The notes under the pieces: model-generated
What the model was told of the DNA's origin: nothing
The model's database searches: none
The model's input: only the letters and a program-made list of their open reading frames with translations
Shown: positions 33,120 through 48,526 of the stretch, piece after piece
How the letters are laid out: each line of letters begins with the position of its first letter
Position numbering within the stretch: the stretch's first letter is position 1
Origin: Acidobacteriota bacterium
Lineage (GTDB): Bacteria; Acidobacteriota; Terriglobia; Terriglobales; Acidobacteriaceae
Reading direction: 5' to 3'
NCBI GenBank assembly: GCA_021804965.1
Contig: JAJZGG010000006.1
Coordinates: 12,038 to 69,463, forward strand
Length of the DNA: 57,426 nucleotides
Translations under genes and position numbers: made by a program

Positions 33120-33611
33120 TTATACCCTCAGGAACTGAAGCTCGGGAATGGTGGTGGAGCGGTCGACCATGAGCTCGCCGTCGTCGCTGAGCCAGAGCTT
33201 GAGCCATGGCAGCGGCTTGGGAGCAGGACCAGCCAGCTTCTTCCCTTCCCGGTTGAAGCGGCTGCCGTGGCAGGGACAGGCGATCATGTTCAGCTCGGGC
33301 TTCCAGGCGGTCATGCAGCCGAGATGGGTGCAAATGGCGCTGAGCGAGAAGAAGCCTTCGGCGATGTGGACGAGATAGATGGCCGAGTCGACATCGAGCG
33401 TGACCGAGCCGGTGGGAAAGTTTTCTGTTCTGCCGACGTTGACGATGGGCGACGGCTCGAAGAGGACATTGGGGGAAAGATAGCGGTAGTAGAAGGCGAG
33501 CGTTCCGGCAGCGGCGACTCCGAGCGAACCGAGTCCCAACTGGGTGAAGAACTTTCTGCGATCCAGCTCGACTTCATGCGAATCGAGTCCGGGGTGCGGT
33601 GTGCTGTTCAT
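33120..33611 (-). CDS. Rieske [2Fe-2S] protein
   Basis: 163 residues. The twin-arginine-like N-terminus LDRRKFFTQLGLGSLGV leads into one membrane helix. Cluster ligands: CTHLGC (94-99) and CPCHGS (112-117). It accepts one electron from quinol at the Qo site. The start at 33611 puts the Tat motif at residues 18-19; a longer frame to 33659 would overlap the flavoprotein gene. The gene lies 3 bases upstream of cytochrome b and just after the flavoprotein gene. Confidence 0.92.
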   Translation of the reverse strand: MNSTPHPGLDSHEVELDRRKFFTQLGLGSLGVAAAGTLAFYYRYLSPNVLFEPSPIVNVGRTENFPTGSVTLDVDSAIYLVHIAEGFFSLSAICTHLGCMTAWKPELNMIACPCHGSRFNREGKKLAGPAPKPLPWLKLWLSDDGELMVDRSTTIPELQFLRV

Positions 33612-33618
33612 GGTTGCA

Positions 33619-35631
33619 TCACTTCCTGTCTGCCGTTGCCAGGCGCAACGGCGCTTCAATCGCTTCGAGGGAGATCAATCCCGTGGGTTCGGACGGGATC
33701 AGGTTGTAGGCTTCCATGGTGATGGTGCCGGCCGGGCAGCGGGCGGCGCAGAGACCGCAGCGGATGCAGCGGGTTTCGTCCTTGAGCATGACGGAGCCGG
33801 AGACGGAGCCGAGGTCGCCGGCGCGCAGATTTTCCAGTTCGATGTCGAGGAACTGCTCGTTGTCCATGAGCTGCTGCACGACGTTGGGTTCAAACTGGAA
33901 GCGGTCGAGACTGACCAGCTCCAGACAACTCTCGGGACAGACATCGACGCAGCCGCCGCAGAGGACGCAGAGACTGCCGTCGTCGGATTTGCCTTCAAAG
34001 ACGGTGTTAACCCAGCAGTGGAGGCAGCGCTGGGCCTCGGCGCGCGCGGTCTGCTCGTCGTAGACGACCTCGACTTCCGTCATGCCGGTGCGACGGTCGA
34101 TGGGGAGCACGGGAGGATCGTTGCGCACCAGATCAAGGAGGTTGACGGGCATGCTGTGGCGATGGAGGATCTCGACTTCAATGCGAGGCTCCGGATGGCT
34201 GGTGCCGCGCAGATACTCGTCGATGCCCATGGCGGCGCGCTTGCCGTCGGCCACGCTGTCAATGATGAGGCGCGGACCGAAGGCGCAGTCGCCGCCGGCG
34301 AAGATGCCGGAAGCCGAAGTCATGAGGGTTCGCGCGTTGACGGAGATGAGACCGCGGCGGGAGATTTCGACGCCGTCGTCGGGCTGGAGAAAATCGAGCC
34401 GTGGTGCCTGGCCGATGGCCATGATGATGGTGTCGCAGTCGAGGAGGAATTCGCTGTTTTCGTGGAAGGTGGGATTGAAGCGGCCGTTGGCGTCGAAGAC
34501 CTGCTTGGTGCGGACGACCTCGAGTGCGGCGACGCCGTTGGGACCGGCGACGATGCGCTTGGGACCGAGGCCGGGATGAAGGATGACGCCTTCCTCTTCG
34601 GCCTCGACGATCTCCTCCTCGGCGGCGGGCATGATCTCGCGGTTTTCCAGGCAGACGAGATGGACCTCACTGGCACCGAGACGCAGCGCCGAGAGCGAGA
34701 TGTCCATCATCTCCTTGCCGGCGAGGGCCTCGACGTTGCCGGGGTCCGGCTCCTGCTCCGTAGCTCCATGCGCTGCTGCTCCGTCTTCGGCAGCTCCGTT
34801 GTGGATGGGCACATGCTGGCGGACGACCTCGCGTGCGGCCGAGCGGGCCACGTCCATGGCGACGTTGCCGCCACCGATGACGATGACTTTTTTGCCGATG
34901 GTGAACTGGTAGCCCAGGTTGACGTTGAGCAGGAAATCGATGCCCTTGTGGACGCCGTCGAGATCGACGCCGGGGATTGTGAGGTCGCGGCTCTGGTGGG
35001 CGCCGACGGCGATGAGGACAGCGTCAAAGCCCTGCTGACGCAGCCCGGCGATGGTGAAGTCGCGGCCGGCGGCCTGGTTGAGCTTGAGGGTGATGTCGCC
35101 GGTGGCGAGAATCTCCCGCACCTGCGCCTGAATGACGCTGCGCGGCAGACGATACTCCGGGACACCGAGATGGAGCATGCCGCCGGCAACGGGCGATGCC
35201 TCGAAGATGGTGACGGCGTAGCCCATGAGGGCCAGATCGTGGGCTGCGGACAGGCCGACGGGGCCGGCACCGACGACGGCGATCTTGAAGGGAAGCTTCT
35301 TCTGCGCGCGTCCCTTGTTGACGTCGACGGGACGGCGGGACTCCGGTCCGTGGCGCTCGGTGAGAAAGCGCTTGAGCGCACGGATGGAGATGGGGCGATC
35401 AATGGAACCGCGACGACAGGCGGTCTCACAGGGGTGCGCGCAAACCCTGCCGCAGATGCTGGCGAGCGGGTTGGGTTCACGCGCGTAGCGATAGGCCTCC
35501 TCGAATTTGCCTTCGGCGATGAGGCCGACGTATCGACCGGCGTTGGTGTGGGCCGGACAGGCCATCATGCAGGGAAAGTTGGTGTGCAACCAGCCTGCAT
35601 CGACTGGCTTGTCGTCAAATTGTTTCCACAT
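33619..35631 (-). CDS. FAD/NAD(P)-dependent iron-sulfur oxidoreductase (GltD-like) of the cytochrome complex
   Basis: 670 residues. Residues about 15-100 are a Fer4_20 domain with Cys-rich blocks (NFPCMMACPAHTN; ICGRVCAHPCETACRRG). FAD binding is at VVGAGPVGLSAAHDLALMG and NAD(P) binding at VIGGGNVAMDVARSAAR, with a second GG region ASGIFAGGDCAFGP. The C-terminus carries two 4Fe-4S sets: CVLCGGCVDVCPESC and CIRCGLCAARCPAGT, plus CLHCW. GltD-type proteins are near 480 residues and lack this ferredoxin tail. Its place between cupredoxin and Rieske genes argues for electron exchange between NAD(P)H and the quinone-cytochrome complex, not for glutamate synthesis. It is probably a peripheral cytoplasmic subunit, as no signal peptide is seen. 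Confidence 0.88.
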   Translation of the reverse strand: MWKQFDDKPVDAGWLHTNFPCMMACPAHTNAGRYVGLIAEGKFEEAYRYAREPNPLASICGRVCAHPCETACRRGSIDRPISIRALKRFLTERHGPESRRPVDVNKGRAQKKLPFKIAVVGAGPVGLSAAHDLALMGYAVTIFEASPVAGGMLHLGVPEYRLPRSVIQAQVREILATGDITLKLNQAAGRDFTIAGLRQQGFDAVLIAVGAHQSRDLTIPGVDLDGVHKGIDFLLNVNLGYQFTIGKKVIVIGGGNVAMDVARSAAREVVRQHVPIHNGAAEDGAAAHGATEQEPDPGNVEALAGKEMMDISLSALRLGASEVHLVCLENREIMPAAEEEIVEAEEEGVILHPGLGPKRIVAGPNGVAALEVVRTKQVFDANGRFNPTFHENSEFLLDCDTIIMAIGQAPRLDFLQPDDGVEISRRGLISVNARTLMTSASGIFAGGDCAFGPRLIIDSVADGKRAAMGIDEYLRGTSHPEPRIEVEILHRHSMPVNLLDLVRNDPPVLPIDRRTGMTEVEVVYDEQTARAEAQRCLHCWVNTVFEGKSDDGSLCVLCGGCVDVCPESCLELVSLDRFQFEPNVVQQLMDNEQFLDIELENLRAGDLGSVSGSVMLKDETRCIRCGLCAARCPAGTITMEAYNLIPSEPTGLISLEAIEAPLRLATADRK

Positions 35632-35688: not shown

Positions 35689-36273
35689 TTACCTGCCCAT
35701 CGGAATGTCGGCGGAGGCATCTCCGGAGACGGTGACGGAAACGGTGTGGGTGTGGATCTTGCCGCCCTCATTCCAAGCCGTGAGCTTGTAGGTGCCGTTG
35801 GGAACGTTGTCGATCTTGTAGACGCCGGATTTGTCGGTGATGGCGTAGTAGGGCGTGGGCGCGACGACGATGTATCCGGCCATGTCCGGGTGCACGTTGC
35901 AGAGCAGCGGCACGACGCCGGCGTTGGTGAAGGTGAAGGAACGCGACTGTCCGTGGGGCCAGGTACCCATGTTGTGTCCCATGCCGCGGTTGCCGTTGAT
36001 GGAGGACCAGAAGACGTTGTGCTCGACGCTGTCCTCGTTCTTGAAGTCGACGATGCCACCCTTCTGGACGACGACGATATGGGGCATGAACATGAGCCCC
36101 TTCTGGTCCATGACGACGTGCTGGGTGGGAGCGGGAAAGGTTTTTCCGGGAATGGCTTCGATGTAGACGACCGACTGTCCTTTTGCACCGGTGACCTTGC
36201 CGTGGATGGTGCCGGCGTTGCCGGTGACGGCAGCAGCAAGGATGACGAGAAGAGCGGGAATGCTGGACCTCAT
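35689..36273 (-). CDS. Periplasmic cupredoxin with amicyanin-like copper site
   Basis: 194 residues. Signal peptide MRSSIPALLVILAAAVTGNA. Copper ligands are visible as His85 (VEHNVFW) and C125-N-V-H128-P-D-M131; the C-x2-H-x2-M spacing is that of amicyanin. The last 55 residues (KSGVYKIDNVPNGTYKLTAW) look like a carboxypeptidase-regulatory or Ig-like module. It is the first gene of the cluster, with GGAGG before the ATG. Inferred role: mobile electron carrier for the cytochrome complex, perhaps comparable to rusticyanin in iron oxidisers. The metal has not been shown. Confidence 0.8.
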   Translation of the reverse strand: MRSSIPALLVILAAAVTGNAGTIHGKVTGAKGQSVVYIEAIPGKTFPAPTQHVVMDQKGLMFMPHIVVVQKGGIVDFKNEDSVEHNVFWSSINGNRGMGHNMGTWPHGQSRSFTFTNAGVVPLLCNVHPDMAGYIVVAPTPYYAITDKSGVYKIDNVPNGTYKLTAWNEGGKIHTHTVSVTVSGDASADIPMGR

Positions 36274-36612
36274 GGGTACCTCCGTGAATGCAAAGCTTGA
36301 AGCTGGATGGCGCCAGTGGAAGCGAAGCGCCGGGTGGATGTGCATGCCAGAGTCAGTTCCGCATTGGCCTGGGAAGCCGGCTGCGGGACAGTGATCTGTG
36401 GCACAGGGCCGTCGTACATTCGACACTTTGCATGGGACCAAACCCACACCATGTGCGTAAGTGATGTTCATCACAAAGTCGTGTCAACGTGTGCACAGCG
36501 ATGCGAGCGCGTGGGCTGCATCGAAGGGTGGAGCAGATTAGCCAAGCAGGACAAGGGTTTTCAACGGGTGAGGCGAGGATGGAAGCAACCGAAGGATGGA
36601 GAGAAAAATAAA
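36274..36612. other. Promoter region of the respiratory cluster
   Basis: 339 bases between the cluster's first gene and the terminator of the TonB receptor gene. It contains the palindrome at 36461-36474. I see no gene in it: the short frames lack ribosome sites and protein-like composition. Confidence 0.6.
36461..36474. promoter_or_regulatory. CRP/FNR-like palindrome upstream of the respiratory cluster
   Basis: GTGATGTTCATCAC, 6-base arms GTGATG/CATCAC, core GTGA-N6-TCAC. It is 188 bases upstream of the cupredoxin start, so a long leader or a distal promoter must be assumed if it is an activator site. Confidence 0.55.
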
Positions 36613-36647
36613 ACGGGGGATGCAGCCAGAGCGGCTGCATCCCCCGT
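36604..36647 (-). terminator. Rho-independent terminator of the TonB receptor gene
   Basis: A 15 bp perfect stem (ACGGGGGATGCAGCC at 36613-36627 with its complement at 36633-36647), 5-base loop, followed on the minus strand by TTTTATTTTT. It is 22 bases past the receptor stop and is the strongest terminator in the window. Confidence 0.9.
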
Positions 36648-36668
36648 GGTTATGGTTCGTGATGTGGT

Positions 36669-39308
36669 TTATTTTTTCCCGATGTTGATGGAGACGATGT
36701 ATTCGCGGGGTGCGCCGGGATCGACGAGGGTGTATCCGCCGAAGCTGGTGCCGAAGTAGCCGCCGCTGGTGATGTATGCGGTGGGATTGTAGGCGCGGTT
36801 GAAGAGGTTCTCAATGCCTAGCGAGAACAGGACGGGAATGCCGCGACCGTGGGACATGTGGAAGAGCTGGCCGATGCTGCCGGCCTTGCCGTCCATGTTG
36901 AAGTTGACGACGCCGTAGCCGGAGACTTCCTGCTTGGTGGGTGCGGCGATCAGGTTGCTGAAGAGATAGCGCTGGCCGACGTATTGCCACCAGAGGCCGG
37001 GGGTCAGCGAGCGCTGTTTGTCACCGGACTGCCAGGCCGAGGTGAGGCCGAGATTGGTGCTGTAGCGGGGCGAGTTGGCGATGGGAAAGCCGCGGTAGTT
37101 GCTGGGTGATCCGTTGGGGATGAAGGAGAGGAAGTAGTCGTGCTGGATGATGCCGTTGCCGTGCACCTGCAGGTAGCGATTGGGCGACTCGTCGAAGTTG
37201 ACGGAGACGCCGTTGTAGATGCTGGAGGCAAGGGCGATGGTGGCCGGCGTGCTGATCTGGGCGACCTGCGTGACGACGTTGACGTTGCTGAGCTGATCGT
37301 GGAAGTAGGTGGCATCCAGCGAGCAGGCGCCGAGGAAGGCAAAGGGACACTTGGAGACGAGGAATCCGAGCTCGCGGTTGTCACTCTTGACGGCCTTGAG
37401 CTTGGCAACGTTGACGCCGTTGGTGGCCTGGTTGGCACCGAAGGCGGAGTCGGTGGGGTTTTCATAGGTGATGGCGAAGTTGCCGTGGAAGGTGAGCCAG
37501 GAAAGAGCGCGGTACTGCGCACCGACTGACGGCGACTGCTGCGAGAAGGTCTTGTGGCTGTCCGGAGCCTGCTCGGGATCGTTGGCGGGATCACCCTGCG
37601 GGAAGAAGGACAGGCCGATGTTGTAGTAGTGGGTGCGGAAGTACTGCTCGGCGAGGCCGGGAGTGATGATGAGCCGCTGGTGGAGCAGGTCGATGCGGTC
37701 CTGGCCGTAGAGATAGCCGAAGTCGCTGTCGATCTGGTCTGCGTTGAAGAAGGACGGCTGGGTTTTGGAGGTTCCCAACGCGGGGTTGAAGGTGGCGACG
37801 GGGTTCTTGTACCCCTGATGCATCCAGTAGCCGCCGACGGTGACGAGATTGTGCGAGGCCTGGATGTCGACGGAAGTGGAGGAACCGATGGTGTTGGAGG
37901 CCGGGTTGTACCACTCATGGCCTACGGCGTAGTTGGGGCCGTAGAAGTTGACGACGCGATTGTGAAGGCGGTAGCCGTGGCGGAACCACTCGGAGTTGTG
38001 CATGGTGACACGCGGGGAAAGCTCGAGTTCGAGCTTGGCATAGGCGATGTCACTCTGGGTTTTGATCTGCTTGAACCAGAGGTCCTTGGCAAGCGAGGAG
38101 TAGAAGCCGCTGGTCTGCTGGCTGTAGTACTGCACGTTTGTGGGGACGGCGCTGGAGGGTTGGGAGTCGGGACCGAAGAGGCCGATGGTGGTGACAGCGT
38201 CGCCGGTGTTGTTGTTGGAGGCCGGCGTGATGGGAGCGATGGGCAGGAAGTTGGGACGGAACTCGGTGTTGCGTCCGTGATAGAAGCCGAAGCTGAGGCT
38301 GCCGCGATCGAAGTAGTGATCGACCTTGGCGAGCGTGGCGTAGCCGGATGAGGGCGCGTTGAAGGTGGGAATGCCGATGGTGCCGACACGGAAGGTGTCA
38401 TTGGAGGCGTAACCGAAGGCGAGCAGAGCGGACCAGCCCTTGTAGTTGCCGGTGCGGGCGATGAAGTGCTCGATGTAGGTGTTGTAACTGCCGATGCTGA
38501 CGCCGGCGTTGAGGTCGGGACCGGGCGTGCTCTTGGTCTGGACGGGCATGTAGTTGACGGTGCCGCCAATGCTGTCATACCAGCGATTGGAGGGTCCGCC
38601 GGGACCGTAGGTGACATCCACGTTGTTGATCATGTCCATGATGGGGATCTGGGTGGTCTGCCACTGGCCGTTGTTGGCGCTGAGGTTGTTCATGGGGATG
38701 CCGTCAAAGAGGAAGGTGACGCCGTTGCGGAGGACGTCTCCGTTGACGCTGGACCAGCCGGCCTTGATGCCGCGCAGAACAACCTCACTGCGTGCGGTGG
38801 CAGCGACGCCGCCATATCCATAGACATAGACGCCGGGAGCGGCGGTGAGCGCCTGAGCCGCGCTGCCAAAGGGTCCGGCGACACCTTCAATCTCCGCCTT
38901 GGAGATGGTGGCCTCGGTGACGGAGGTCTCCGGCGAACCCTCGGCGGTGACGGTGACGGACTCGCTGTTGGAGGCGATCTGCATGGAGAGATGGACGGTC
39001 TCGCTTTGCCCGGCGGAGAGCTGGATGCCGTTGCGGGTGAGGACGTCGAAGCCCTTCATACTGGAGGTGACCATGTAGGAGCCGGGAGCAAGATTGGCGG
39101 CGTCAAATGCGCCCTGGGCATCGCTGGTGACGTTGGTGATGGCCTGGGTGCCAAGGTTGATGATGGAGACGGTTGCCCCGGCGATGGCCTCACCGGAAAC
39201 GGTGGTGACGGTGCCACGAAGCTCCGTGGAGCCCTGGGCAAGAAGCAGTTTTCCTCCGAACAGAACAACAAAAGCGCCAAGCAGAATACATCTTCTCAGG
39301 CGTTGCAT
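36669..39308 (-). CDS. TonB-dependent outer-membrane receptor
   Basis: 879 residues. Signal peptide (to about residue 25), a carboxypeptidase-regulatory-like domain (TELRGTVTTVSGEAIAGATVSI ... GSYMVTSSMKGF, about 28-95), a plug domain (about 120-230; LRGIKAGWSSVNGDVLRNGVTFLFDGIPMNN) and a C-terminal barrel with a terminal strand ending YIVSINIGKK. Such receptors import siderophores, metals or glycans using TonB. The ligand is not evident. It stands between the heme-rich respiratory cluster and the nickel-dependent hydrogenase locus and is divergent from hypC, so metal uptake (Fe or Ni) is a reasonable guess, no more. Confidence 0.88.
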   Translation of the reverse strand: MQRLRRCILLGAFVVLFGGKLLLAQGSTELRGTVTTVSGEAIAGATVSIINLGTQAITNVTSDAQGAFDAANLAPGSYMVTSSMKGFDVLTRNGIQLSAGQSETVHLSMQIASNSESVTVTAEGSPETSVTEATISKAEIEGVAGPFGSAAQALTAAPGVYVYGYGGVAATARSEVVLRGIKAGWSSVNGDVLRNGVTFLFDGIPMNNLSANNGQWQTTQIPIMDMINNVDVTYGPGGPSNRWYDSIGGTVNYMPVQTKSTPGPDLNAGVSIGSYNTYIEHFIARTGNYKGWSALLAFGYASNDTFRVGTIGIPTFNAPSSGYATLAKVDHYFDRGSLSFGFYHGRNTEFRPNFLPIAPITPASNNNTGDAVTTIGLFGPDSQPSSAVPTNVQYYSQQTSGFYSSLAKDLWFKQIKTQSDIAYAKLELELSPRVTMHNSEWFRHGYRLHNRVVNFYGPNYAVGHEWYNPASNTIGSSTSVDIQASHNLVTVGGYWMHQGYKNPVATFNPALGTSKTQPSFFNADQIDSDFGYLYGQDRIDLLHQRLIITPGLAEQYFRTHYYNIGLSFFPQGDPANDPEQAPDSHKTFSQQSPSVGAQYRALSWLTFHGNFAITYENPTDSAFGANQATNGVNVAKLKAVKSDNRELGFLVSKCPFAFLGACSLDATYFHDQLSNVNVVTQVAQISTPATIALASSIYNGVSVNFDESPNRYLQVHGNGIIQHDYFLSFIPNGSPSNYRGFPIANSPRYSTNLGLTSAWQSGDKQRSLTPGLWWQYVGQRYLFSNLIAAPTKQEVSGYGVVNFNMDGKAGSIGQLFHMSHGRGIPVLFSLGIENLFNRAYNPTAYITSGGYFGTSFGGYTLVDPGAPREYIVSINIGKK

Positions 39309-39606
39309 CAGCTACCTCATCAATGGGAATTGGCGTGCGGGAGCGGTCGTGCTGCGTGGGAATCCGCGTGCCTGTTTTGAAGTTATGGAGGCTGTATTAC
39401 GAACTCTTGATGGCTGCGTGAATTTCATTACGGGGTTATGACGGGGCTGTCATTCAGGCATGAATGGGTGTGGAACCGAGCGCGGCCGCCGGGAGGATGG
39501 AATGGGCTGCGATGCAATCGGCTACAGAAGAACTGTACGTCGGTGATGCCGGTCACAGGCTGCACGGGTTCATGTGCTTCAGAATGCCGTGGTGTGAGGT
39601 TGGGCC
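39309..39606. promoter_or_regulatory. Divergent promoter region of TonB receptor and hyp operon
   Basis: 298 bases without a gene. It holds the perfect GTGA-N6-TCAC site at 39543-39556 and a weaker one, GTGAATTTCATTAC, at 39418-39431 (one mismatch in the right arm), about 110 bases before the receptor start. Confidence 0.5.
39543..39556. promoter_or_regulatory. CRP/FNR-like palindrome upstream of hypC
   Basis: GTGATGCCGGTCAC, core GTGA-N6-TCAC, ending 50 bases before the hypC start codon. This is a good distance for an activator binding near the -35 region if the leader is short. Confidence 0.6.
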
Positions 39607-39957
39607 ATGTGTCTGGCGATTCCAGGGCGATTGCTGAGCCGGGAAGAAAGCAACGGGATGCTGCGCGGGCGGATTGAGTTTGCCGGGATTGTGCGCGAAG
39701 CGTGTCTGGATTTTCTGCCCGAGGCCGAGGTGGGAGACTACGTGCTGGTGCATGTGGGATTTGCGATTACGCGGGTGGATGAACAGGATGCCGAAGAGAC
39801 GCTGATGTATCTGCGCCAGATCGGGCGGCTGGAAGAGGAGCTGGGTGCGGAGCCGGATTTGGACGCTGGCGCCGACGACAGCGGGACAGACGCTGATCCC
39901 ACGCGGGCGGTGCGGATGACCATGAACAAGTCGGGCGAGACGGGCGAGGCGGAATGA
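39607..39957 (+). CDS. hypC: Hydrogenase maturation chaperone HypC
   Basis: 116 residues. It begins MCLAIPGRLL with the essential Cys2, followed by the OB-fold (GRIEFAGIVREACLDFLPEAEVGDYVLVHVGFAITRVDEQDA). With HypD it carries the Fe(CN)2CO unit during [NiFe] cofactor assembly and then hands it to the large subunit. HypC is usually 75-95 residues; here an acidic tail of roughly 30 residues (DLDAGADDSGTDADP) is added. It overlaps hypD by four bases and is the first gene of the hypCDEABF-hyaABCD locus. Confidence 0.95.
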   Translation: MCLAIPGRLLSREESNGMLRGRIEFAGIVREACLDFLPEAEVGDYVLVHVGFAITRVDEQDAEETLMYLRQIGRLEEELGAEPDLDAGADDSGTDADPTRAVRMTMNKSGETGEAE

Positions 39958-41075
39958 TGCGGTATGTGGATGAGTATCGGGATCAGGAGCTGGCGCTGGG
40001 GCTGATGAACCGTCTGCGCGCGATTGCGCAGCATCCGTGGGTGCTGATGGAGGTCTGTGGCGGGCAGACGCACACGCTGGTGCGGTACGGCATTGACACG
40101 CTGCTGCCGGCGGGCATGGAGATGATCCACGGGCCGGGATGCCCGGTGTGCGTGACGCCGCTGGAGATGATTGACCGGGCGATTGCGATTGCCGGAATGC
40201 CGAAGGTGATTCTGGCCAGCTATGGGGACATGATGCGGGTGCCGGGATCGAACCGCGACCTGCTGCATGCGCGGGCGATGGGCGCCGATGTGCGGATGGT
40301 GTATTCGCCGCTGGATGCGCTGGAGCTGGCACGACAGAACCCGGAGCGCGAGGTGGTGTTTTTTGCCGTGGGATTTGAGACGACGGCACCGGCGAATGCG
40401 GCGGCTGTCTTCCAGGCGCGGCGGCTGGGGATTGGGAACTTTTCCCTGCTGGCCTCGCATGTGCTGGTGCCACCGGCACTGGAGGCACTGTTGCAGTCGG
40501 AGGGAAATCGCGTGCAGGGGCTGATTGCACCGGGGCATGTGTGCTCGATTGTGGGACTGGATGCGTATGAGCAGCTGGCGAAGCGGTTTGCGATCCCGAT
40601 TGTGGTGGGGGGATTTGAGCCGGTGGACCTGATGGAAGCGATTGTGATGCTGACCGAGCAGTTGGAGGAGGGTCGGGCTGAGGTGGAGAACCAGTACTCA
40701 CGGTCAGTGCGCAGCGACGGGAACCGGAACGCAATGCAGATGGTGGAAAGTGTGCTGGAAGTGTGCGACCGGAACTGGCGCGGGATGGGCAGGATTCCAC
40801 TGTCCGGGCTGCGGGTGCGGGCGGAATATCGGGAGTGGGATGCGGAGCACAAGTTTGCCGTGACGGAGATGACGGTGGCCGAACCGGAGGCGTGTCTGGC
40901 GGCAGAGATTCTGCAGGGGCGTCGGAAGCCGGATGGCTGCCCGGCCTTTGGCAGGGAGTGCACGCCGGAGCATCCGCTGGGTGCGCCGATAGTCTCCACC
41001 GAAGGCGCCTGCTCGGCGTATTTCCAGTATCGACGGCTGGCCGAACCGGCGGTGGCGACGGGAGGCCTGCGATGA
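39954..41075 (+). CDS. hypD: Hydrogenase maturation factor HypD
   Basis: 373 residues, normal length. It provides the scaffold on which Fe(CN)2CO is built. Family blocks: MEVCGGQTHTLVRYGID, the redox-active GPGCPVCVTP (about 61-70), FFAVGFETTAP, HVCSIVG, and the C-terminal [4Fe-4S] pattern GCPAFGRECTPEHPLGAP followed by TEGACSAYF. The ATG at 39954 overlaps the hypC stop. Confidence 0.96.
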   Translation: MMRYVDEYRDQELALGLMNRLRAIAQHPWVLMEVCGGQTHTLVRYGIDTLLPAGMEMIHGPGCPVCVTPLEMIDRAIAIAGMPKVILASYGDMMRVPGSNRDLLHARAMGADVRMVYSPLDALELARQNPEREVVFFAVGFETTAPANAAAVFQARRLGIGNFSLLASHVLVPPALEALLQSEGNRVQGLIAPGHVCSIVGLDAYEQLAKRFAIPIVVGGFEPVDLMEAIVMLTEQLEEGRAEVENQYSRSVRSDGNRNAMQMVESVLEVCDRNWRGMGRIPLSGLRVRAEYREWDAEHKFAVTEMTVAEPEACLAAEILQGRRKPDGCPAFGRECTPEHPLGAPIVSTEGACSAYFQYRRLAEPAVATGGLR

Positions 41076-42106
41076 CGAGTTGTCCGATTGCGCTGAAGGC
41101 GGATGCGTGCATTGTGCTGGGACATGGCTCGGGCGGGCGAATGTCTGCCGAGCTGATGGAGGAGATTTTTCTGCCTGCCTTTCGCAATGCGGCGCTGGAG
41201 GAGCGGAACGATCAGGCAACGGTGCGGGTGCCGGAGGGTCGGATTGCGCTGTCCACGGACAGCTTTGTGGTGAAGCCGCTGTTTTTTCCAGGAGGAAATA
41301 TCGGCGAACTGGCCGTGTATGGGACGGTGAATGATCTGGCCGTGGGCGGGGCGATTCCGCGGTTCCTGACGGCGGGTTTCATTCTGGAGGAAGGCCTGCC
41401 GATGGAGACGCTGCGCAGCATTGTGGTGGCGATGGCGGCGGCGGCCGAGCGCTGCGGCGTGAGCATTGTGACGGGCGATACGAAGGTGGTGGAAAAGGGA
41501 TCGGGCGATCAGATTTTTGTGACGACGACGGGAGTGGGCGTGGTGCCGGAGACGGTGCGGCTGTCTGCCGGCGGCGTGCAGGTGGGTGACAGGGTGGTGC
41601 TGAGCGGATCACTGGGCGACCACGGAATCACGATTCTGGCGCAGCGCGAAGGCATGGAGCTGGAGGGCGATCTGCAGTCGGATGCCGGATCACTGTTTGA
41701 GCTTTGCCAGGCGGTGCTGCAGGCGGCTCCGGGCACGCATGCGATGCGCGATTTGACGCGCGGAGGACTGAGCTCGGCGCTGAACGAGATTGCGCAGTCG
41801 GCGCAGGTGGGCATCACGGTGGACGAGGCGAGGATTCCGGTTTCGACGACGGTGCGCGGTGCCTGCGAGCTGTTTGGACTGGACCCGATGTATGTGGCCA
41901 ACGAGGGCAAGATGGTGGCCTTTGTGCCGGAGGCGCAGGCAGAAGCTGCGCTGCAGGCGATGCGGGAGCTGCCGGAGGGTGCAGCGGCGCGGATTGTGGG
42001 CCAGGTGACGGATCGGCATCCGGGCATGGTGACGACGCGGACACGGATTGGCACGGAGAGAATTCTGGCGATGCTGGCGCAGGACCAGCTGCCGCGGATT
42101 TGCTGA
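41072..42106 (+). CDS. hypE: Hydrogenase maturation factor HypE
   Basis: 344 residues. An AIR-synthase-like, ATP-dependent dehydratase that converts the carbamoyl group on its C-terminal Cys into thiocyanate (the cyanide source). The end reads LPRIC, the diagnostic motif with the modified cysteine as last residue. Also visible: LGHGSGGRMSAELM, PGGNIGELAVYGTVNDLAVGGA, GDTKVVEKG. Start at 41072 in an ATGA overlap with hypD. Confidence 0.96.
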   Translation: MTSCPIALKADACIVLGHGSGGRMSAELMEEIFLPAFRNAALEERNDQATVRVPEGRIALSTDSFVVKPLFFPGGNIGELAVYGTVNDLAVGGAIPRFLTAGFILEEGLPMETLRSIVVAMAAAAERCGVSIVTGDTKVVEKGSGDQIFVTTTGVGVVPETVRLSAGGVQVGDRVVLSGSLGDHGITILAQREGMELEGDLQSDAGSLFELCQAVLQAAPGTHAMRDLTRGGLSSALNEIAQSAQVGITVDEARIPVSTTVRGACELFGLDPMYVANEGKMVAFVPEAQAEAALQAMRELPEGAAARIVGQVTDRHPGMVTTRTRIGTERILAMLAQDQLPRIC

Positions 42107-42117
42107 AAGGCGATGCC

Positions 42118-42522
42118 ATGCATGAACTGGCTCTGGCGGAATCGATTGCACAGGCTGTGCGCCGGACGATGGAAGAGCTGCCGGGCCGGACGCCGGTGCA
42201 GGTGAGGCTGCGGCTGGGCGTGCTGGCAGCAGTGGATCTGGCGGCACTGCAGTTTGGGTTTGCGGTGGCGGCGCGGGAGAGCGGATGGGACGGGCTGGTG
42301 CTGGAGGCGGTGTGCGTGCCGGCAGAGCTGCTGTGTGTGGAATGCGGAGCGCGCACGGAGACACGGGTGGCGCATGGCGACTGCCCGGTGTGCGGATCCA
42401 GCCGGACGATGCTGCATGGCTCCGATGAACTGGAGATGGAATCACTGGAGGTGGTAGATGGAAACACAGAACATGCCTCAAGGAACGACGGAGATTCCCC
42501 TGAAGCAACAGGTGCTGCATGA
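42118..42522 (+). CDS. hypA: Hydrogenase nickel-insertion protein HypA
   Basis: 134 residues. It starts MHELALAES with the nickel-binding Met1-His2-Glu3 of HypA. Zinc site: CVEC and CPVC (about residues 77-80 and 92-95, LLCVECGARTETRVAHGDCPVCGSS). HypA is typically 113-118 residues; here the frame runs 65 bases into hypB, adding a non-conserved tail. Eleven bases separate it from hypE. AAAGG precedes the start at a proper distance. It delivers Ni with HypB. Confidence 0.93.
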   Translation: MHELALAESIAQAVRRTMEELPGRTPVQVRLRLGVLAAVDLAALQFGFAVAARESGWDGLVLEAVCVPAELLCVECGARTETRVAHGDCPVCGSSRTMLHGSDELEMESLEVVDGNTEHASRNDGDSPEATGAA

Positions 42523-43180
42523 GAATCAACGCATTGCCGAGCGGCTTCGCAACCGCTATCGGGATGCCAACCTGCTGTGCGTGAACATGATTTCAGCGCC
42601 TGGCTCGGGGAAGACTTCGCTGCTGGAAAAGACGCTGGAGATCCTGGGGGACGAAGCGTCACCGCTGCGCGTGGCAGTCTTGACGGGCGATGTGCAGACG
42701 GACAACGATGCACGGCGACTGGCGCGCTATGGGTATCCGGTGAAGCAGATTACGACCGGGGGATGCTGCCATCTGGATGGCTCGATGATTGAGCGACATC
42801 TGGCGGATTGGGACCTGTCGATTCTGGATATTTTGTTTATCGAGAATGTGGGGAACCTGGTGTGTCCTGCCAGCTATGATCTGGGCGAGCATGACAAGAT
42901 TGTGCTGCTGTCGGTGACGGAGGGCGAGGACAAGCCGCTGAAATATCCGTCGATCTTCCACAAGGCTTCGCTGTTTCTAATGACGAAGGTGGACCTGCTG
43001 GGTCTGGTGCCGTTTGATGCGCTGGTGGCCGAACAGAATGCGGCGCGGATCCATGACGGGATCGAGGTGATTCGCTGCTCGGCGGTGAGCTACCACGGGA
43101 TGGAGGACTGGATTCGCTGGCTGAAGAAACGTCTGCACGCGGTGCGCGCCAACAACTGCCGGGAAACGGTGACGCACTGA
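42458..43180 (+). CDS. hypB: Hydrogenase nickel-insertion GTPase HypB
   Basis: 240 residues, SIMIBI GTPase. P-loop SAPGSGKTSLLEK (about 47-59), VLTGDVQTDNDARRL, TTGGCCHLDGSMI, FIENVGNLVCPASYDLGEHDKIVLLSVTEGEDKP, and MTKVDLLG for base recognition. It lacks the His-rich nickel-storage N-terminus found in some bacteria. ATG with GGAGG about nine bases upstream, inside the end of hypA. Confidence 0.96.
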   Translation: METQNMPQGTTEIPLKQQVLHENQRIAERLRNRYRDANLLCVNMISAPGSGKTSLLEKTLEILGDEASPLRVAVLTGDVQTDNDARRLARYGYPVKQITTGGCCHLDGSMIERHLADWDLSILDILFIENVGNLVCPASYDLGEHDKIVLLSVTEGEDKPLKYPSIFHKASLFLMTKVDLLGLVPFDALVAEQNAARIHDGIEVIRCSAVSYHGMEDWIRWLKKRLHAVRANNCRETVTH

Positions 43181-43190
43181 GAGCGGCGGG

Positions 43191-45569
43191 ATGAGACGCG
43201 ATGCGCAGGGCGAAGGCCTGTCCGCGAAGCCGGACTGGATGCCGGACGCGAAGCCGGAGCGCATTGCAGTGCGCATCCGCGGGCTGGTGCAGGGCGTGGG
43301 CTTTCGTCCGTTTGTGTATCGGCTGGCGCAGGAAGAGCGGCTGAGCGGATGGGTGAGCAACGACAGCGATGGCGTGCTGGCGGAGATGGAGGGTGCCGAC
43401 GATGCCCTGCACCGCTGCCTGGAGCGGATACGCACGGAGGCTCCGCCGCTGGCGCAGATAGAGGCCGTGGAGTGGGTGGCGACGGATGTGCGCGGCGAAG
43501 AGGGATTTGCCATTCGTGCCAGCGTGGAGTCCGGGACGGTGCGCACGGGGATTCCTGCCGATGCGGCGATGTGCGACGACTGCCGGCGGGAGCTGCTGGA
43601 TCCGGAGGACCGGCGCTATCGCTATCCGTTTTTGAACTGCACGAACTGCGGGCCGCGATTCACGATTACGCGGCATATTCCCTATGACCGTCCGCAGACG
43701 TCGATGGCGGCGTTTCGGATGTGTGCGCGGTGCCAGGAAGAGTACGAGACGCCGACGGATCGGCGCTTCCATGCGCAGCCGAATGCCTGCCCGGAGTGCG
43801 GGCCGCATCTGCAATTCGTAGACAGCGATGGCAGGGAGACGGACGGCGATGAGGCGGCACTGCAGGCGACGATTGCCTGCCTGAAGGCCGGAGGGATTGT
43901 GGCCATCAAGGGGCTGGGCGGATTTCATCTCGCTGTGGATGCGGGCAACGAGGCGGCGGTGAGCCGGTTGCGGCAGCGGAAACACCGCGCGGCCAAGCCG
44001 CTGGCGATCCTGGTGGCCGATGTGGAGACGGCGCGGACGATCTGCGCGATGGATGCCGCAGAAGAGGCACTGCTGCAGGCGGTGGAGCGGCCGATTGTGC
44101 TGCTGCGCAGGCAGGCTGAATGCAGGCTGACTGTGGCGGCGAGCGTGGCGCCGAGCGTGCCCTGGCTGGGGGTGTTTCTGCCGTATACGCCGCTGCATGC
44201 GCTGCTGTTTGCCGGCAGCGGACTGGAGGCGCTGGTGATGACGAGCGCCAACCTCTCCGAGGAGCCGATCTGCATTGGAAACGAGGAGGCTGGCAGACGG
44301 CTGCGCGGGATTGCGGATGCGTTTCTGTTCCATGACCGGGAGATTCTGCAGCGATGCGACGACTCGGTGGTGGCGGTGGTGGCGGGCAGAGCGCAGTTTC
44401 TGCGGCGGGCGCGAGGGTATGTTCCGCGGGCGGTGCGGCTGCCGGATGGCGGCAGTGCCGGATGCGTGCTGGCAGTGGGCGGACAGATGAAAGCAACGCT
44501 GACGCTGACCAAGGACGGGAAGGCGTATGCGAGCCAGCATATCGGCGAGATGGATTCGCCGCAGTCGCTGGATTTTTTTCTGGAGGCGCTGGAGCATCTG
44601 CAGCGCACGTTTGCGATGGAGCCGGAGGTGGTGGCGCATGACCTGCATCCGGAGTACACGTCGACGCTGTGGGCTGCTGCGTTTGCGCGAAGCCATTCCC
44701 TGCCCCGGATCGGAGTGCAGCACCACCATGCGCACCTGGCCGGATGTCTGGCTGAGCACGGACGCAGCGAACGGGCGCTGGGACTGGCGCTGGATGGAAC
44801 CGGATATGGGAGCGATGGCAGCGTGTGGGGCGGCGAGCTGCTGGAGTTTGACCTGCAGGGATTCACGCGGCGGGGACATTTGCAACCGATGCCGATGCCG
44901 GGCTCGGAGATGGCAATTCGCGAGCCGTGGCGAATGGCGCTGGGCGGGCTGGCAACGCGGGCAGAGGCCGATGCTCTGCGGCGATGCGGGCTGCTGAAGC
45001 CGCAGGGTGAACGGCTGCTGGCACAGATTGCGGCCGGGCGGTCGGGGCCATGGACGTCGAGCCTGGGACGGCTGTTTGATGCAGTGGCTGCGGTGGCGAT
45101 GGGGCGACACAGGGTGGAGTATGAGGCGCAGGCTGCGGTGGAACTGGAGGCGGTGGCGGATGTGTGGGGGAAGGACTGCTATCCGACGGTGCTGCAGCGG
45201 GCCAAGAGCGACGGAACAATTGTGCTGGACGGTGGCGCGCTGCTGGAGGCAGTGCTGGCGGACAGACTGGCCGGGGTGAGCGCGGCGGTGATGGCGACGC
45301 GATTCCATCGCTGGGTGGTGGAGGGGTTTGCGGAGATGGTGCGGGATACGAAGGAGCGGAGCGGATTGCGGCTGGTGTGCCTGTCGGGCGGATGCCTGCA
45401 CAATCGGCTGCTGACGGCGTGGATGGTGGAGCGACTGCAGGCGATGGGCTGCGAGGTGCTGGTGCCGCAGCAGACCAGTCCGGGGGATGGTGGACTGAGC
45501 TATGGGCAGGCGGTGGTTGCCAGCAGTGTTGCCCGTCGCGAGGGGATGCAGCCACACAGGATGGGGTGA
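43191..45569 (+). CDS. hypF: Hydrogenase maturation carbamoyltransferase HypF
   Basis: 792 residues, normal length. Domains in order: acylphosphatase (about 22-112; VRIRGLVQGVGFRPFVYRLA), two C-x2-C-x18-C-x2-C zinc fingers (CDDC, CTNC, CARC, CPEC, about 127-205), YrdC-like (IVAIKGLGGFHLAVDAGNEA, about 230-420) and the Kae1-like carbamoyltransferase (VQHHHAHLAGCLAEHG, LDGTGYGSDGSVWGGEL, CLSGGCLHNRLL). It makes thiocarboxamide on HypE from carbamoyl phosphate. Its stop codon overlaps the palindrome in front of hyaA. Confidence 0.96.
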   Translation: MRRDAQGEGLSAKPDWMPDAKPERIAVRIRGLVQGVGFRPFVYRLAQEERLSGWVSNDSDGVLAEMEGADDALHRCLERIRTEAPPLAQIEAVEWVATDVRGEEGFAIRASVESGTVRTGIPADAAMCDDCRRELLDPEDRRYRYPFLNCTNCGPRFTITRHIPYDRPQTSMAAFRMCARCQEEYETPTDRRFHAQPNACPECGPHLQFVDSDGRETDGDEAALQATIACLKAGGIVAIKGLGGFHLAVDAGNEAAVSRLRQRKHRAAKPLAILVADVETARTICAMDAAEEALLQAVERPIVLLRRQAECRLTVAASVAPSVPWLGVFLPYTPLHALLFAGSGLEALVMTSANLSEEPICIGNEEAGRRLRGIADAFLFHDREILQRCDDSVVAVVAGRAQFLRRARGYVPRAVRLPDGGSAGCVLAVGGQMKATLTLTKDGKAYASQHIGEMDSPQSLDFFLEALEHLQRTFAMEPEVVAHDLHPEYTSTLWAAAFARSHSLPRIGVQHHHAHLAGCLAEHGRSERALGLALDGTGYGSDGSVWGGELLEFDLQGFTRRGHLQPMPMPGSEMAIREPWRMALGGLATRAEADALRRCGLLKPQGERLLAQIAAGRSGPWTSSLGRLFDAVAAVAMGRHRVEYEAQAAVELEAVADVWGKDCYPTVLQRAKSDGTIVLDGGALLEAVLADRLAGVSAAVMATRFHRWVVEGFAEMVRDTKERSGLRLVCLSGGCLHNRLLTAWMVERLQAMGCEVLVPQQTSPGDGGLSYGQAVVASSVARREGMQPHRMG

Positions 45570-45579
45570 TGCGTGTCAC
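45566..45579. promoter_or_regulatory. CRP/FNR-like palindrome upstream of hyaA
   Basis: GTGATGCGTGTCAC, core GTGA-N6-TCAC, overlapping the hypF stop and ending 106 bases before the hyaA ATG. It lies in the only sizeable gap (116 bases) of the hyp-hya locus, which suggests a separate promoter for the structural genes. Confidence 0.6.
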
Positions 45580-45685
45580 ATCGCAGAGAGGACGGACAGG
45601 CCTACCGTAACTGCGGGTTGACTGCCGCCTGCAACGCGGTGATGAGATGCGGAAGCGGAAGAGACCAGAATCCTGAGAGGTGGGT

Positions 45686-46783
45686 ATGGGGAACGCGTCG
45701 CAATCGATATGGGGTTCCATGCAGTCGAAGGGCTACAGCCGGCGGGATTTCCTGCAGTTTTGTGCCGTGGCCGCAACCATGGCGGGGTTGGGACGCGAGG
45801 GCGTGGGCGAGGTGGTATCCGCGTTTGACCGGAAGGCCAAGCCGCCGGTGGTGTGGATGCACTTCCAGGAATGCACCTGCTGCAGCGAATCGTTTCTGCG
45901 CGCCTCCCACCCGATTGTGGCTGATGTGCTGCTGGATGTGCTGTCACTGAACTATACGGAGACGCTGCAGGCTGCGTCGGGATTCCAGGCGGAGAAGTGC
46001 CTGACCGACACGATCCAGAACAACAAGGGCAAGTACATTGTGCTGGTGGAAGGCGCGGTGCCGCTGCACGATGACGGGGTCTACTGCATGATCGGAGGCA
46101 GGACGGCGGAGTCGATTCTGCACGAGGTGGCCAAGGATGCGGCGGCGGTGATTGCCTGGGGCAGTTGCGCCTCGAATGGATGCGTGCAGGCTGCGAAGCC
46201 GAATCCGACCGGGGCAACGCCGATCCAGAAACTGGTGGATGTGCCGGTGATCAACGTGCCGGGCTGCCCGCCGATTGCCGACGTGATGATGGCCGTGGTG
46301 ACGCATCTGGTGGTGCTGGGGCAGATTCCCTCACTGGACGACCAGGGAAGGCCGAAGGAGTTCTACTCGCGGCGCGTGCATGACACCTGCTATCGGCGTG
46401 CGAACTACGATGCCGGGCTGTTTGTGGAGAGCTTTGATGACGAGAATGCGCGCAAGGGCTACTGCCTGTACAAGGTGGGATGCAAGGGCCCGGTGACGTA
46501 TAACGCGTGCTCGGTGGTGAAGTGGAATGAAGGCACGAGCTATCCGATCCAGTCCGGGCATGGGTGCATTGGATGCAGCGAGGCCGGCTTCTGGGACAAG
46601 GGACCGTTCTATCAGCATCTGCCGTCGTTCCCGGGATTCGGGATTGAGTCCACGGCGGACACGGTGGGCGCGGCGGTGGGCCTGGTGACGCTGGCCGGTG
46701 TGGCCGCGCATGCGGTGATGACCAACGTTCGCAAGAAGAAGATCATCTCCGAAGTGCATGAGGATGATCAGCCGGAAGTGTAG
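45686..46783 (+). CDS. hyaA: [NiFe] hydrogenase small subunit, O2-tolerant type
   Basis: 365 residues. Twin-arginine signal KGYSRRDFLQFCAV. The proximal-cluster cysteines are C63, C65, C66, C161, C166 and C194 (ECTCCSES, WGSCASNGC, PGCPP), equivalent to the six that hold the [4Fe-3S] cluster in E. coli Hyd-1 (C17, C19, C20, C115, C120, C149). Medial and distal cluster motifs (CYRRANYDAG, KGYCLYKVGCKGPVTYNACS, GHGCIGCSEAGFWD) are present. A C-terminal membrane helix (TVGAAVGLVTLAGVAAHAV) anchors it. ATG 45686 with GAGAGG six bases upstream is preferred to GTG 45680. Confidence 0.96.
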   Translation: MGNASQSIWGSMQSKGYSRRDFLQFCAVAATMAGLGREGVGEVVSAFDRKAKPPVVWMHFQECTCCSESFLRASHPIVADVLLDVLSLNYTETLQAASGFQAEKCLTDTIQNNKGKYIVLVEGAVPLHDDGVYCMIGGRTAESILHEVAKDAAAVIAWGSCASNGCVQAAKPNPTGATPIQKLVDVPVINVPGCPPIADVMMAVVTHLVVLGQIPSLDDQGRPKEFYSRRVHDTCYRRANYDAGLFVESFDDENARKGYCLYKVGCKGPVTYNACSVVKWNEGTSYPIQSGHGCIGCSEAGFWDKGPFYQHLPSFPGFGIESTADTVGAAVGLVTLAGVAAHAVMTNVRKKKIISEVHEDDQPEV

Positions 46784-46810: not shown

Positions 46811-48526
46811 ATGGCGACGAGAATTGTGGTGGATCCGATCACGCGGATTGAAGGTCATCTGCGCATTGAGGCGACGGTGGAAAACGGGGTGATCACCGAT
46901 GCGTGGAGCGCGGGGACGATGGTTCGCGGTCTGGAAAAGATCCTGCAGGGTCGCGACCCGCGCGATGCCTGGGCAATCACCGAACGGGTGTGCGGGGTGT
47001 GCACGAGCATCCATGCGCTGGCCAGTGTGCGCGCAGTGGAGGATGCGATCGGCACCCAGGTTCCGCATACGGCAGAGCTGATCCGCAACATCATGCAGAC
47101 GACGCAGTATGTGCAGGATCATGTGGTGCATTTTTATCATCTGCATGCGCTGGACTGGGTCGATATTGTGAATGCGCTGAAGGCCGATCCGGTGAAGACG
47201 GCAGCGCTGGCGCAGTCTCTGTCCAGTTGGGACAAGAATACGCCGTCGCATTTTCTGGACGTGCAGCGGAAGATCACGACCTTTGCCAACTCCGGGATGG
47301 GGATTTTTGCGAATGGATACTGGGGGCATCCGGCGTACAAGCTGCCGCCGGAGGCGAATCTGCTGGCGGTGGCGCACTACCTGGACGCGCTGGAGTGGCA
47401 GAAGGAGATTGTGAAGATTCATGCGGTGTTTGGCGGCAAGAATCCCCATCCGAATTTTCTGGTGGGTGGGGTTCCGTGCTCGATCAACATCGAAGAGGTG
47501 AATGCGATCAACTCGGAGCGGCTGAATCTGGTGAAGTCGCTGATTGATCAGGCGGACGAGTTTGTGCATCAGGTGTATCTGCCGGATCTGCTGGCGGTGG
47601 CCAGCTTCTACAAGGACTGGGCGGGGATTGGTGGCGGGCTGACGAACTACATGAGCTATGGGGAGTTTCCGACGCAGGGATACGGGAACCCGGACAAGTT
47701 CAAGTATGCGCGCGGCGTGGTGCTGAACCGGGATCTGACGACGGTGCATCCGGTGAATCCGCGGGACTCGCAGGAGATCAAGGAGTACATTGCACACTCC
47801 TGGTACGAGTACAGCGAGGGCGAGCATGTGGGACTGCATCCGTGGGCGGGCGAGACGAACATCCAGTATGCCGGGCCGAAGCCGCCGTTTACGACGCTTG
47901 AGGGGTATGAGAAATATTCGTTCCTGAAGACTCCGCGCTGGAAGGAGCAGCCGATGGAGGTGGGTCCGCTGGCGCGGCTGATTGTGAGCTATGCGGCAGG
48001 ACACACGGACGTGCAGGAGCTGGTGAAGGACACGCTGGGACGGCTGCAGGCTCCGCAGAGTGCGCTGTTCAGCACGCTGGGACGGACGGCGGCGCGAGGA
48101 CTGGATGCGAAGCTGGCGGTGGACTGGCTGAAGGAGTTCTATGCAGAGCTGATGGAGCGGGTGAAGACGAACCAGGTCTCGACCTTCAACAACGAGAAGT
48201 GGGAGCCGTCGTCATGGCCGATGCAGGCCGAGGGCGTGGGTCTGGTGGAGGCTCCGCGCGGCGCACTGGCGCACTGGATCCGGATTCGCGATGGTCGGAT
48301 TGACAACTACCAGCTGGTGGTTCCGACGACATGGAATGGCTCGCCGCGGGACGTGAACCAGACGCGGAGCGCTTTTGAGGCTTCGCTGATCGGGACTCCG
48401 GTGAAGAACCTGGAGCAGCCGGTGGAGATCCTGCGCACGATTCATTCGTTTGATCCGTGCCTGGCGTGCGCGGTGCATTTGTATGACCCGGAAGGCCGGC
48501 ATCTGCACCAGGTGCATGTGGAGTAA
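46811..48526 (+). CDS. hyaB: [NiFe] hydrogenase large subunit
   Basis: 571 residues, carries the Ni-Fe(CN)2CO active site. L1 motif RVCGVCTSIHALAS (Cys61, Cys64) and L2 motif DPCLACAVH (Cys550, Cys553). The 15 residues after His556 are the propeptide removed by HyaD once nickel is in place. Most similar in layout to Hyd-1-like group 1d enzymes, which feed electrons to quinone through a cytochrome b. 27 bases after hyaA, with GGAGAGAG before the ATG. Confidence 0.97.
   Translation: MATRIVVDPITRIEGHLRIEATVENGVITDAWSAGTMVRGLEKILQGRDPRDAWAITERVCGVCTSIHALASVRAVEDAIGTQVPHTAELIRNIMQTTQYVQDHVVHFYHLHALDWVDIVNALKADPVKTAALAQSLSSWDKNTPSHFLDVQRKITTFANSGMGIFANGYWGHPAYKLPPEANLLAVAHYLDALEWQKEIVKIHAVFGGKNPHPNFLVGGVPCSINIEEVNAINSERLNLVKSLIDQADEFVHQVYLPDLLAVASFYKDWAGIGGGLTNYMSYGEFPTQGYGNPDKFKYARGVVLNRDLTTVHPVNPRDSQEIKEYIAHSWYEYSEGEHVGLHPWAGETNIQYAGPKPPFTTLEGYEKYSFLKTPRWKEQPMEVGPLARLIVSYAAGHTDVQELVKDTLGRLQAPQSALFSTLGRTAARGLDAKLAVDWLKEFYAELMERVKTNQVSTFNNEKWEPSSWPMQAEGVGLVEAPRGALAHWIRIRDGRIDNYQLVVPTTWNGSPRDVNQTRSAFEASLIGTPVKNLEQPVEILRTIHSFDPCLACAVHLYDPEGRHLHQVHVE

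Follow-up and report, generated by a model that had tools for sequence, protein, structure and literature searches.

The perfect palindrome GTGA-N6-TCAC stands before the genes of an uptake [NiFe] hydrogenase (hya), the hydrogenase maturation operon (hyp) and a Rieske/cytochrome b operon in the stretch of Acidobacteriaceae DNA analyzed here (the window, 57,426 nucleotides (nt) in full). The presence of the same operator before all three suggests their joint activation by a single regulator, which is probably an oxygen sensor. We found the site to be conserved about 65- to 270-fold over shuffled sequences at four promoters, i.e., those of hyaA, hypC, the first gene of the cytochrome operon and, outside the window, cydA. 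It appears likely that a Crp-Fnr activator co-regulates the hydrogenase, hyp and Rieske/cytochrome operons, with an FNR-like protein as the regulator and low oxygen as the signal; binding, activation, the iron-sulfur (Fe-S) cluster and the O2 signal are what we infer from sequence. We also lean, with less assurance, toward a wider proposal, an Acidobacteriaceae-wide low-oxygen regulon in which an FNR-type Fe-S sensor with a CRP-type code would activate hydrogenases, their maturation, a bc-like operon and cytochrome bd as one module.

Conservation of the operator in Acidobacteriaceae

Among 300 family genomes, the source genome included, 121 had matches to HyaA (E<=0.001). Genomes used for cross-genome counts, gene neighborhoods and held-out promoters were chosen by hand, and the own locus was counted once in each promoter set. 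Among close relatives, the perfect site was present upstream of hyaA in 14 of 20 stretches, and a hypF match upstream in none of the 20. In the promoter sets, the perfect site preceded hyaA at 22 of 28 loci (0.16 expected from shuffles; L040 and L043 were dropped from the original 30 for having <200 bp upstream), hypC at 19 of 28 (0.07 expected; 28 of 29 loci were used, with no hypC match in L087 and with L106 omitted as a duplicate of L105), the first cytochrome-operon gene at 17 of 30, own locus counted (0.26 expected), and cydA at 19 of 30 (0.15 expected; a 31st locus, L252, was too short). The reversed pattern was found in none of these four sets. At hypC the position was also kept, the center of the site lying 43–57 nt before the start in 15 of the 19 loci. 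The hya, hyp and cytochrome operons of relatives are mostly on separate contigs or far apart. Conservation in orthologous promoters, a check named together with the original prediction of these sites, is strong at the hya, hyp and cytochrome-operon promoters.

Many loci without a perfect site could be examined individually. At four of the six hyaA loci that lack it, a one-mismatch site was found 117–123 nt before the start. Among the nine hypC misses, two (G226 and G296) have hyp downstream of hya on the same strand with the site before hyaA, two have hypF directly upstream, three have one-mismatch sites at 53–54 nt and one at 153 nt, and one is without any. The cytochrome operon showed rearranged heads: in 13 genomes with no site before the cupredoxin-like gene that comes first in our operon, another gene of the same strand lies directly upstream, in 11 of them a relative of the CxxCH-protein gene described below. 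A perfect site was found ahead of the rearranged head in 12 of the 13 (counted without shuffle controls). In 10 of the 12 it is separated from the called start by about 90 to 580 nt; of the other two, L348 has sites that run into the beginning of the head gene as called, and L342 has additional genes in between. The exception, L340, had no site, not even with one mismatch, in the 600 bp examined.

A second type of hyaA (44–50% identical) had the site in all seven loci where it was called, out of eight picked by hand. In a set of named hyaA loci (78 of 80, L301 and L313 being too short), which partly overlaps the family genome set, 30 of 51 Acidobacteriota-titled promoters had the site (0.31 expected); these 51 loci and the 28 hyaA loci above also overlap in part. 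TTGA-type FNR boxes were rejected for this group, TTGAN6TCAA being present in 0 of 51 (0.43 expected). Among 27 hyaA loci without an Acidobacteria-type title, GTGAN6TCAC occurred at one (0.1 expected) and TTGAN6TCAA at one (0.56 expected), and extension of the GTGA code to other phyla was rejected on this count; the group includes one Pyrinomonadaceae record (L308), which has no site. Three Acidobacteria-titled hyaA loci at 66–68% identity had no site either. Because of the one outside locus in 27 and the absence from these three, the GTGA operator code looks like a feature of Acidobacteriaceae. Within the family, GTGAYN4RTCAC was more frequent than its reversed control in every one of 40 chosen genomes (1940 versus 294 in total), with the weakest excess in G210 (14 versus 12). 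The hyaA promoter of Occallatibacter savannae (Acidobacteriota, Terriglobia, Acidobacteriaceae; L288) carries two sites. Stacked operators were also seen before hyaA in three loci of one genus (L067, L072 and L073), up to four if one-mismatch sites are included, about 16 and 57 bp apart.

Occurrence in the window and in the source genome

A pattern search of the window found four exact matches to GTGA-N6-TCAC and no others; shuffled windows had 0.74 on average, and none of 100 shuffles reached four. All four are where the original prediction had placed them and, as it had described, all have a GTGAT left arm on the plus strand. They read GTGATTCCGATCAC (21786–21799, an exact match with no strand assigned), GTGATGTTCATCAC (36461–36474; GTGATGAACATCAC on the minus strand, when read toward the cytochrome-complex operon before which it is the putative operator), GTGATGCCGGTCAC (39543–39556, plus strand, putative operator of hypC) and GTGATGCGTGTCAC (45566–45579, plus strand, putative operator of hyaA). 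The hypC site does end 50 bases ahead of the gene (site end at 39556, ATG at 39607). The hyaA site had been assigned to the gap between hyp and hya; it is at the edge of this gap and overlaps the last four bases of hypF, whose TGA stop codon is at 45567–45569. Apart from this overlap, the claim that coding DNA is free of sites holds for the window and fails for the genome, where 23 of 41 sites are in called genes. Likewise, the view that the sites front related units stands for 36461, 39543 and 45566 and not for 21786, which has no evident link to H2.

The source genome is a 2.97-Mb draft, 87.5% complete. Its 41 sites compare with 22 occurrences of the reversed-pattern control, an approximately twofold enrichment, and the Poisson probability of at least four sites in 57 kb is 0.009 at the genome's rate (41 in 2.97 Mb) and 0.001 at the reversed-pattern rate. 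The proposed comparison of sites inside and outside genes, for which we used a simple codon-based gene call made for this analysis, gave a divided answer. Intergenic sites made up 18 of 41. This share was rejected as proof, since it was about equal in the reversed control (9 of 22). What differed was placement and the arm: 16 of 41 sites were intergenic and <=300 bp upstream of a called gene, versus 3 of 22 in the control (Fisher one-sided p 0.03), and the T/A-extended arm, GTGAT or ATCAC, was present in 17 of 18 intergenic versus 11 of 23 genic sites (p 0.0014; hand count). About half of the genome's sites may be chance. Since the bare genome-wide pattern is a weak signal, conservation must decide the case.

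Elsewhere in the genome, cydA and a cytochrome c assembly gene also have intergenic sites ahead of them (with a radical-SAM gene and mutS, respectively, on the opposite side), as do genes for a multihaem cytochrome, rubrerythrin and a universal stress protein. Taken with the hya, hyp and Rieske/cytochrome b operons, this set reads as a low-oxygen respiration module. The 21786 palindrome is located between divergent genes, one for a BON-domain protein (minus strand) and one for a small protein with a sub-threshold DUF948 match (plus strand), and no -10-like hexamer was found on either side at the offset common to the other sites. A role of this palindrome as an operator is not supported, and it is possibly a chance occurrence.

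Position of the operator relative to the promoter

All four promoter sets had their best TATAAT-like hexamer at the same offset, 23 nt past the palindrome. When the sets were pooled (71 sequences, after promoters >=80% alike had been collapsed from 77), this offset had a z of 5.7 among 60 offsets, with -10 weights that were rough and of our own making. The window has TCCCAT (36432–36437, minus strand) 23 nt after the cytochrome-operon operator, CAGAAT (39580–39585, plus strand) after that of hypC and TACCGT (45603–45608, plus strand) after that of hyaA. Flanks of the palindromes are poorly conserved, and the -10-like hexamer stands out: among 18 collapsed hypC promoters, 11 have TATAA at this offset, and after the cytochrome-operon site relatives have, for example, TCTGAT, TCATAT and TTAGAT there. 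The distance from operator center to -10 center is 33 bp. In class II promoters of CRP and FNR this spacing is about 32, the operator is centered at about -41.5 from the start site, and the regulator contacts RNA polymerase and activates. In these four sets the 23-nt spacing of the hexamer resembles that of an activator site; the held-out promoters described below gave a mixed picture.

Candidate regulators

Two Crp-Fnr proteins with a Crp-type helix-turn-helix (HTH) were found in the source genome, one FNR-like (G000:C11, at about 59 kb) and one Crp-like (G000:C132, at about 78 kb), both with PF00027 and PF13545 above cut-off. Four further frames have cNMP-binding domains and no Crp-type HTH match. 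With regard to the suggestion that one CRP/FNR-family regulator is responsible, the family is supported by the half-site, the -10 spacing and the R-E-xxx-R recognition helix, and the word “one” is unproven, as the genome has two HTH-bearing Crp-Fnr proteins and relatives have more.

In the FNR-like protein and its 30 best loci, C14, C17 and C26 are present in 31 of 31 and C113, which we take to be the equivalent of FNR C122, in 28 of 31; R202, E203 and R207, which form the R-E-xxx-R recognition helix, are present in all 31. Because of these conserved cysteines and this helix, the protein, judged by its residues, joins an FNR-like sensor end to a CRP-like reading head. The four cysteines probably hold an O2-labile [4Fe-4S] cluster, and since the candidate carries them, low oxygen is the most likely signal. 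The FNR-like query matched 60 of 60 chosen genomes at E<=0.001 (59 of them at 2e-36 or better), and relatives hold up to 25 matches. The number of matches increased with the excess of sites per Mb (Spearman 0.61, n 40, uncorrected for kinship). A perfect site was located before 7 of 33 fnr-like rows, or 6 of 32 distinct genes (L213 and L206 hold the same gene, which was counted twice), where 0.16 were expected.

Five fnr-like neighborhoods were picked for linkage. The fnr-like gene of G173 is about 1 kb beyond hypE, with sites after hypE and 228 nt before the fnr-like gene. In G046, about 3 kb separate the hydrogenase genes from a tandem pair of fnr-like genes; one site lies between the two members of the pair, and another precedes a small cytochrome c-like gene. 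Two tandem fnr-like genes with sites were also found in G269, about 7 kb from a second hydrogenase that itself has an upstream site, and in G258 fnr-like genes flank a universal-stress-like gene on both sides, with sites. The fifth, G165, is considered below.

Some related proteins were also observed. Crp-Fnr paralogues beside the FNR-like gene in L208 and L213 are without some or all of the four cysteines; these cysteine-poor copies are perhaps FixK-like partners without a cluster. In the source genome, a perfect palindrome stands about 80 bp ahead of the called start of a gene whose cNMP-binding product showed no HTH (L002, G000:C4:26367), and an 852-amino-acid frame (L051, G000:C48) has NuoG/ferredoxin-type Fe-S domains, recognized by eye, fused to cNMP-binding domains.

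These data can be combined as follows. The palindromes at 36461, 39543 and 45566 would be operators of a Crp-Fnr family activator that would bind GTGA-N6-TCAC (often GTGAY-N4-RTCAC) about 33 bp, center to center, upstream of the -10 element in a class II-like arrangement. It would turn on together the O2-tolerant-type uptake [NiFe] hydrogenase, the Hyp maturation operon and the Rieske/cytochrome b/multihaem cytochrome operon, and possibly cytochrome bd oxidase, which the same site precedes elsewhere in the genome. The FNR-like protein (G000:C11) is the most likely regulator and would activate when oxygen falls.

Genes of the putative target operons

The cytochrome operon is on the minus strand and begins with a gene for a cupredoxin/CarboxypepD_reg-like protein (35689..36273), followed by those for a GltD-like FAD/Fe-S oxidoreductase (33619..35631), a Rieske protein (33120..33611), cytochrome b of the N-terminal type (32325..33116) and of the C-terminal/petD type (31624..32286; ExtQ match below cut-off), a multihaem cytochrome c (29560..31623) and a cytochrome c (28775..29563). 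On the same strand is a gene (27343..28692) for a 449-amino-acid protein that has a single CxxCH close to the N terminus and is without matches in Pfam or NCBIfam. Its relatives sit directly upstream of the cupredoxin-like gene in other genomes, and by eye it resembles porin-cytochromes such as Cyc2. The plus strand carries the hypC-hypD-hypE-hypA-hypB-hypF operon (39607..45569), followed by hyaA for the small subunit of the uptake [NiFe] hydrogenase (45686..46783), hyaB for the large subunit (46811..48526) and genes for a cytochrome b561-type subunit (48563..49276) and a hydrogenase maturation protease (49273..49752). The best solved match of HyaA is the HoxK membrane-bound hydrogenase (437 bits). 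HyaA keeps ECTCC and a further cysteine aligned to that of GMSC in HoxK, which we take to be marks of O2 tolerance.

Elsewhere in the window, a tRNA-Ser(CGA) (11206–11297) is followed by an open reading frame that by eye resembles a tyrosine recombinase (11483–12688). A DNA methylase (16481–18280) and a ResIII helicase (18292–20892) come after these, an arrangement like that of a type III restriction-modification island.

Alternative explanations

Several observations weigh against co-regulation by an FNR-like activator. The promoter loci come from genomes that are related to one another, and their counts cannot be treated as independent. In a held-out set of 29 sites, the 23-nt spacing failed overall, with no general peak there: it ranked third of 60 offsets (z 1.4), and peaks were found at 45 nt (12 cytX-type operon heads), 20 nt (7 second-type hyaA) and 25 nt (10 other heads). 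By eye, 10 of the 12 cytX-type head promoters (L337–L347) have another, degenerate GTGA half-site two turns (22 bp) further downstream than the perfect operator. Counted from this second element, the 45-nt position is at 23 nt, and a -10-like hexamer stands there; the two promoters without the element have AACAAT and CACAAT at 23. The second element may account for the 45-nt peak, an explanation made after the fact. Besides, -10 scores of intergenic and genic sites in the own genome showed no significant difference (p 0.066), and some intergenic sites precede genes that fit poorly, such as those for SAICAR synthetase, proline dehydrogenase, a ClC channel, a MocA-type oxidoreductase, a PAS/MCP protein and a HAD hydrolase. 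With regard to the candidate itself, its N-terminal cysteines are spaced CX2CX8C, and the spacing in E. coli FNR is CX2CX5C. It scored 71.8 of 228 bits with the NCBIfam FNR model, below cut-off, and 67.6 and 58.7 bits with the FixK and FnrL models (cut-off 300); with the CRP model the two proteins scored 61.9 and 70.1 bits (cut-off 266). Its own gene has no perfect site ahead of it, and autoregulation of this gene was rejected. Finally, hypC of G173 has no site, and in G165 the fnr-like gene is 14 kb from hyaA with no site near.

The recognition helix alone cannot pick the regulator, because the Crp-like protein (C132) by eye has R-E-xxx-R as well. As the only other HTH-bearing Crp-Fnr protein found in the genome, adjoining a gene for a ScdA_N/hemerythrin protein (ScdA/RIC-type), C132 could be the protein to which the operators mainly belong, sensing nitric oxide (NO) or another signal. 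We regard this as improbable: C132 had no match at E<=1e-25 in 8 of 40 genomes (G081 and G296 being only 84% and 89% complete), yet seven of the eight (G131, G081, G280, G191, G296, G247 and G210) keep a perfect hyaA, hypC or cydA site, and in the five relatives' neighborhoods each linked Crp-Fnr gene matches the FNR-like and not the Crp-like protein. A related possibility, which partly overlaps the preferred reading, is that several Crp-Fnr paralogues share the GTGA code and that the operons are under at least two regulators, responding to O2 and, for example, NO. The up to 25 FNR-like matches in relatives, the tandem fnr-like genes with sites between them, the copies without some or all of the four cysteines and the two or three sites stacked in some hyaA promoters all agree with it, but the own genome (87.5% complete) yielded only two such proteins, and we consider it rather unlikely.

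Classical cAMP-CRP catabolite control, under which H2 oxidation would rise as organic carbon runs out, is in our judgment very unlikely. The GTGA half-site is that of E. coli CRP, and a group 1h hydrogenase was upregulated in stationary phase in an acidobacterium of another subdivision, according to the available text of PMC5900883; however, both proteins fall below the NCBIfam CRP cut-off, and an O2 sensor better accounts for the conserved cysteines and the cydA/cytochrome targets. Chance has in its favor that 23 of the 41 palindromes in the genome are in called genes and that the reversed pattern occurs 22 times, and it is likely to remain the explanation for many genic sites. For the three main sites we give it almost no weight, since the 65- to 270-fold conservation at four promoters contradicts it. 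The reading that we retain is activation of the three operons by the FNR-like protein at low oxygen.

Implications

Acidobacteria are common in soils (PMC5900883, available text) and have been named among soil H2 oxidizers (PMC7174314, available text). Among titles and abstracts on Acidobacteriota in the best-ranked, mostly open literature, no regulator of hydrogenases and no such regulon was described, a weak indication that none has been reported; PMC9599518 and PMC5900883 discuss these hydrogenases, and FNR or Crp is absent from both. If the low-oxygen regulon is true, H2 oxidation by O2-tolerant uptake hydrogenases would be part of a microoxic respiration program and not a starvation response, and the operator would have been kept or re-created at the heads of rearranged operons. 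A named operator, a candidate regulator and a predicted signal make hydrogenase regulation in Acidobacteria testable in cultured relatives such as Occallatibacter savannae.

Comparison with known systems

This kind of circuit is already known, because FnrN and FixK of Alphaproteobacteria control hydrogen uptake and oxidases (cyd and cco among them), with an O2-sensing Fe-S cluster in FnrN (available text of PMC4999443). The Acidobacteriaceae system shares with them the Crp-Fnr family and, by prediction, the oxidase and hydrogen-uptake targets. It differs in belonging to another phylum, in the operator (GTGAN6TCAC in 30 of 51 of the Acidobacteriota set, TTGAN6TCAA in 0 of 51) and, as far as the targets given in that source go, in including a Rieske/cytochrome b operon. 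The candidate resembles E. coli FNR and Pseudomonas ANR in the N-terminal cysteines plus a central cysteine, the Crp-type HTH and the activator-like geometry, whereas its helix reads R-E-T-V-T-R and does not have the E209/S212/R213 of FNR (available text of PMC4505428). Further differences from E. coli FNR are the GTGA instead of the TTGA operator (TTGATN4ATCAA for FNR), the CX2CX8C spacing and the score of 71.8 of 228 bits.

The reading head is closer to that of other family members. R, E and R at helix positions 1, 2 and 6 are common to CRP and Desulfovibrio HcpR1, both of which bind TGTGA-N6-TCACA, and HcpR1, as proposed for our candidate, combines this helix and operator in a redox regulator that is not CRP (available text of PMC5701242). 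HcpR1 differs in being tied to nitrosative stress and in controlling nap and its own gene, and no hydrogenase control by it was found in that text. At class II promoters of E. coli CRP, too, a GTGA-N6-TCAC operator lies a short way upstream of the -10 element (33 bp here), but neither of the two proteins is CRP by NCBIfam, and the targets here are largely respiratory. For three of the four sites, the comparison supports interpretation of the Acidobacteriaceae system as a Crp-Fnr respiratory regulon, in which a predicted FNR-like sensor combined with a CRP-like operator would control H2 oxidation.

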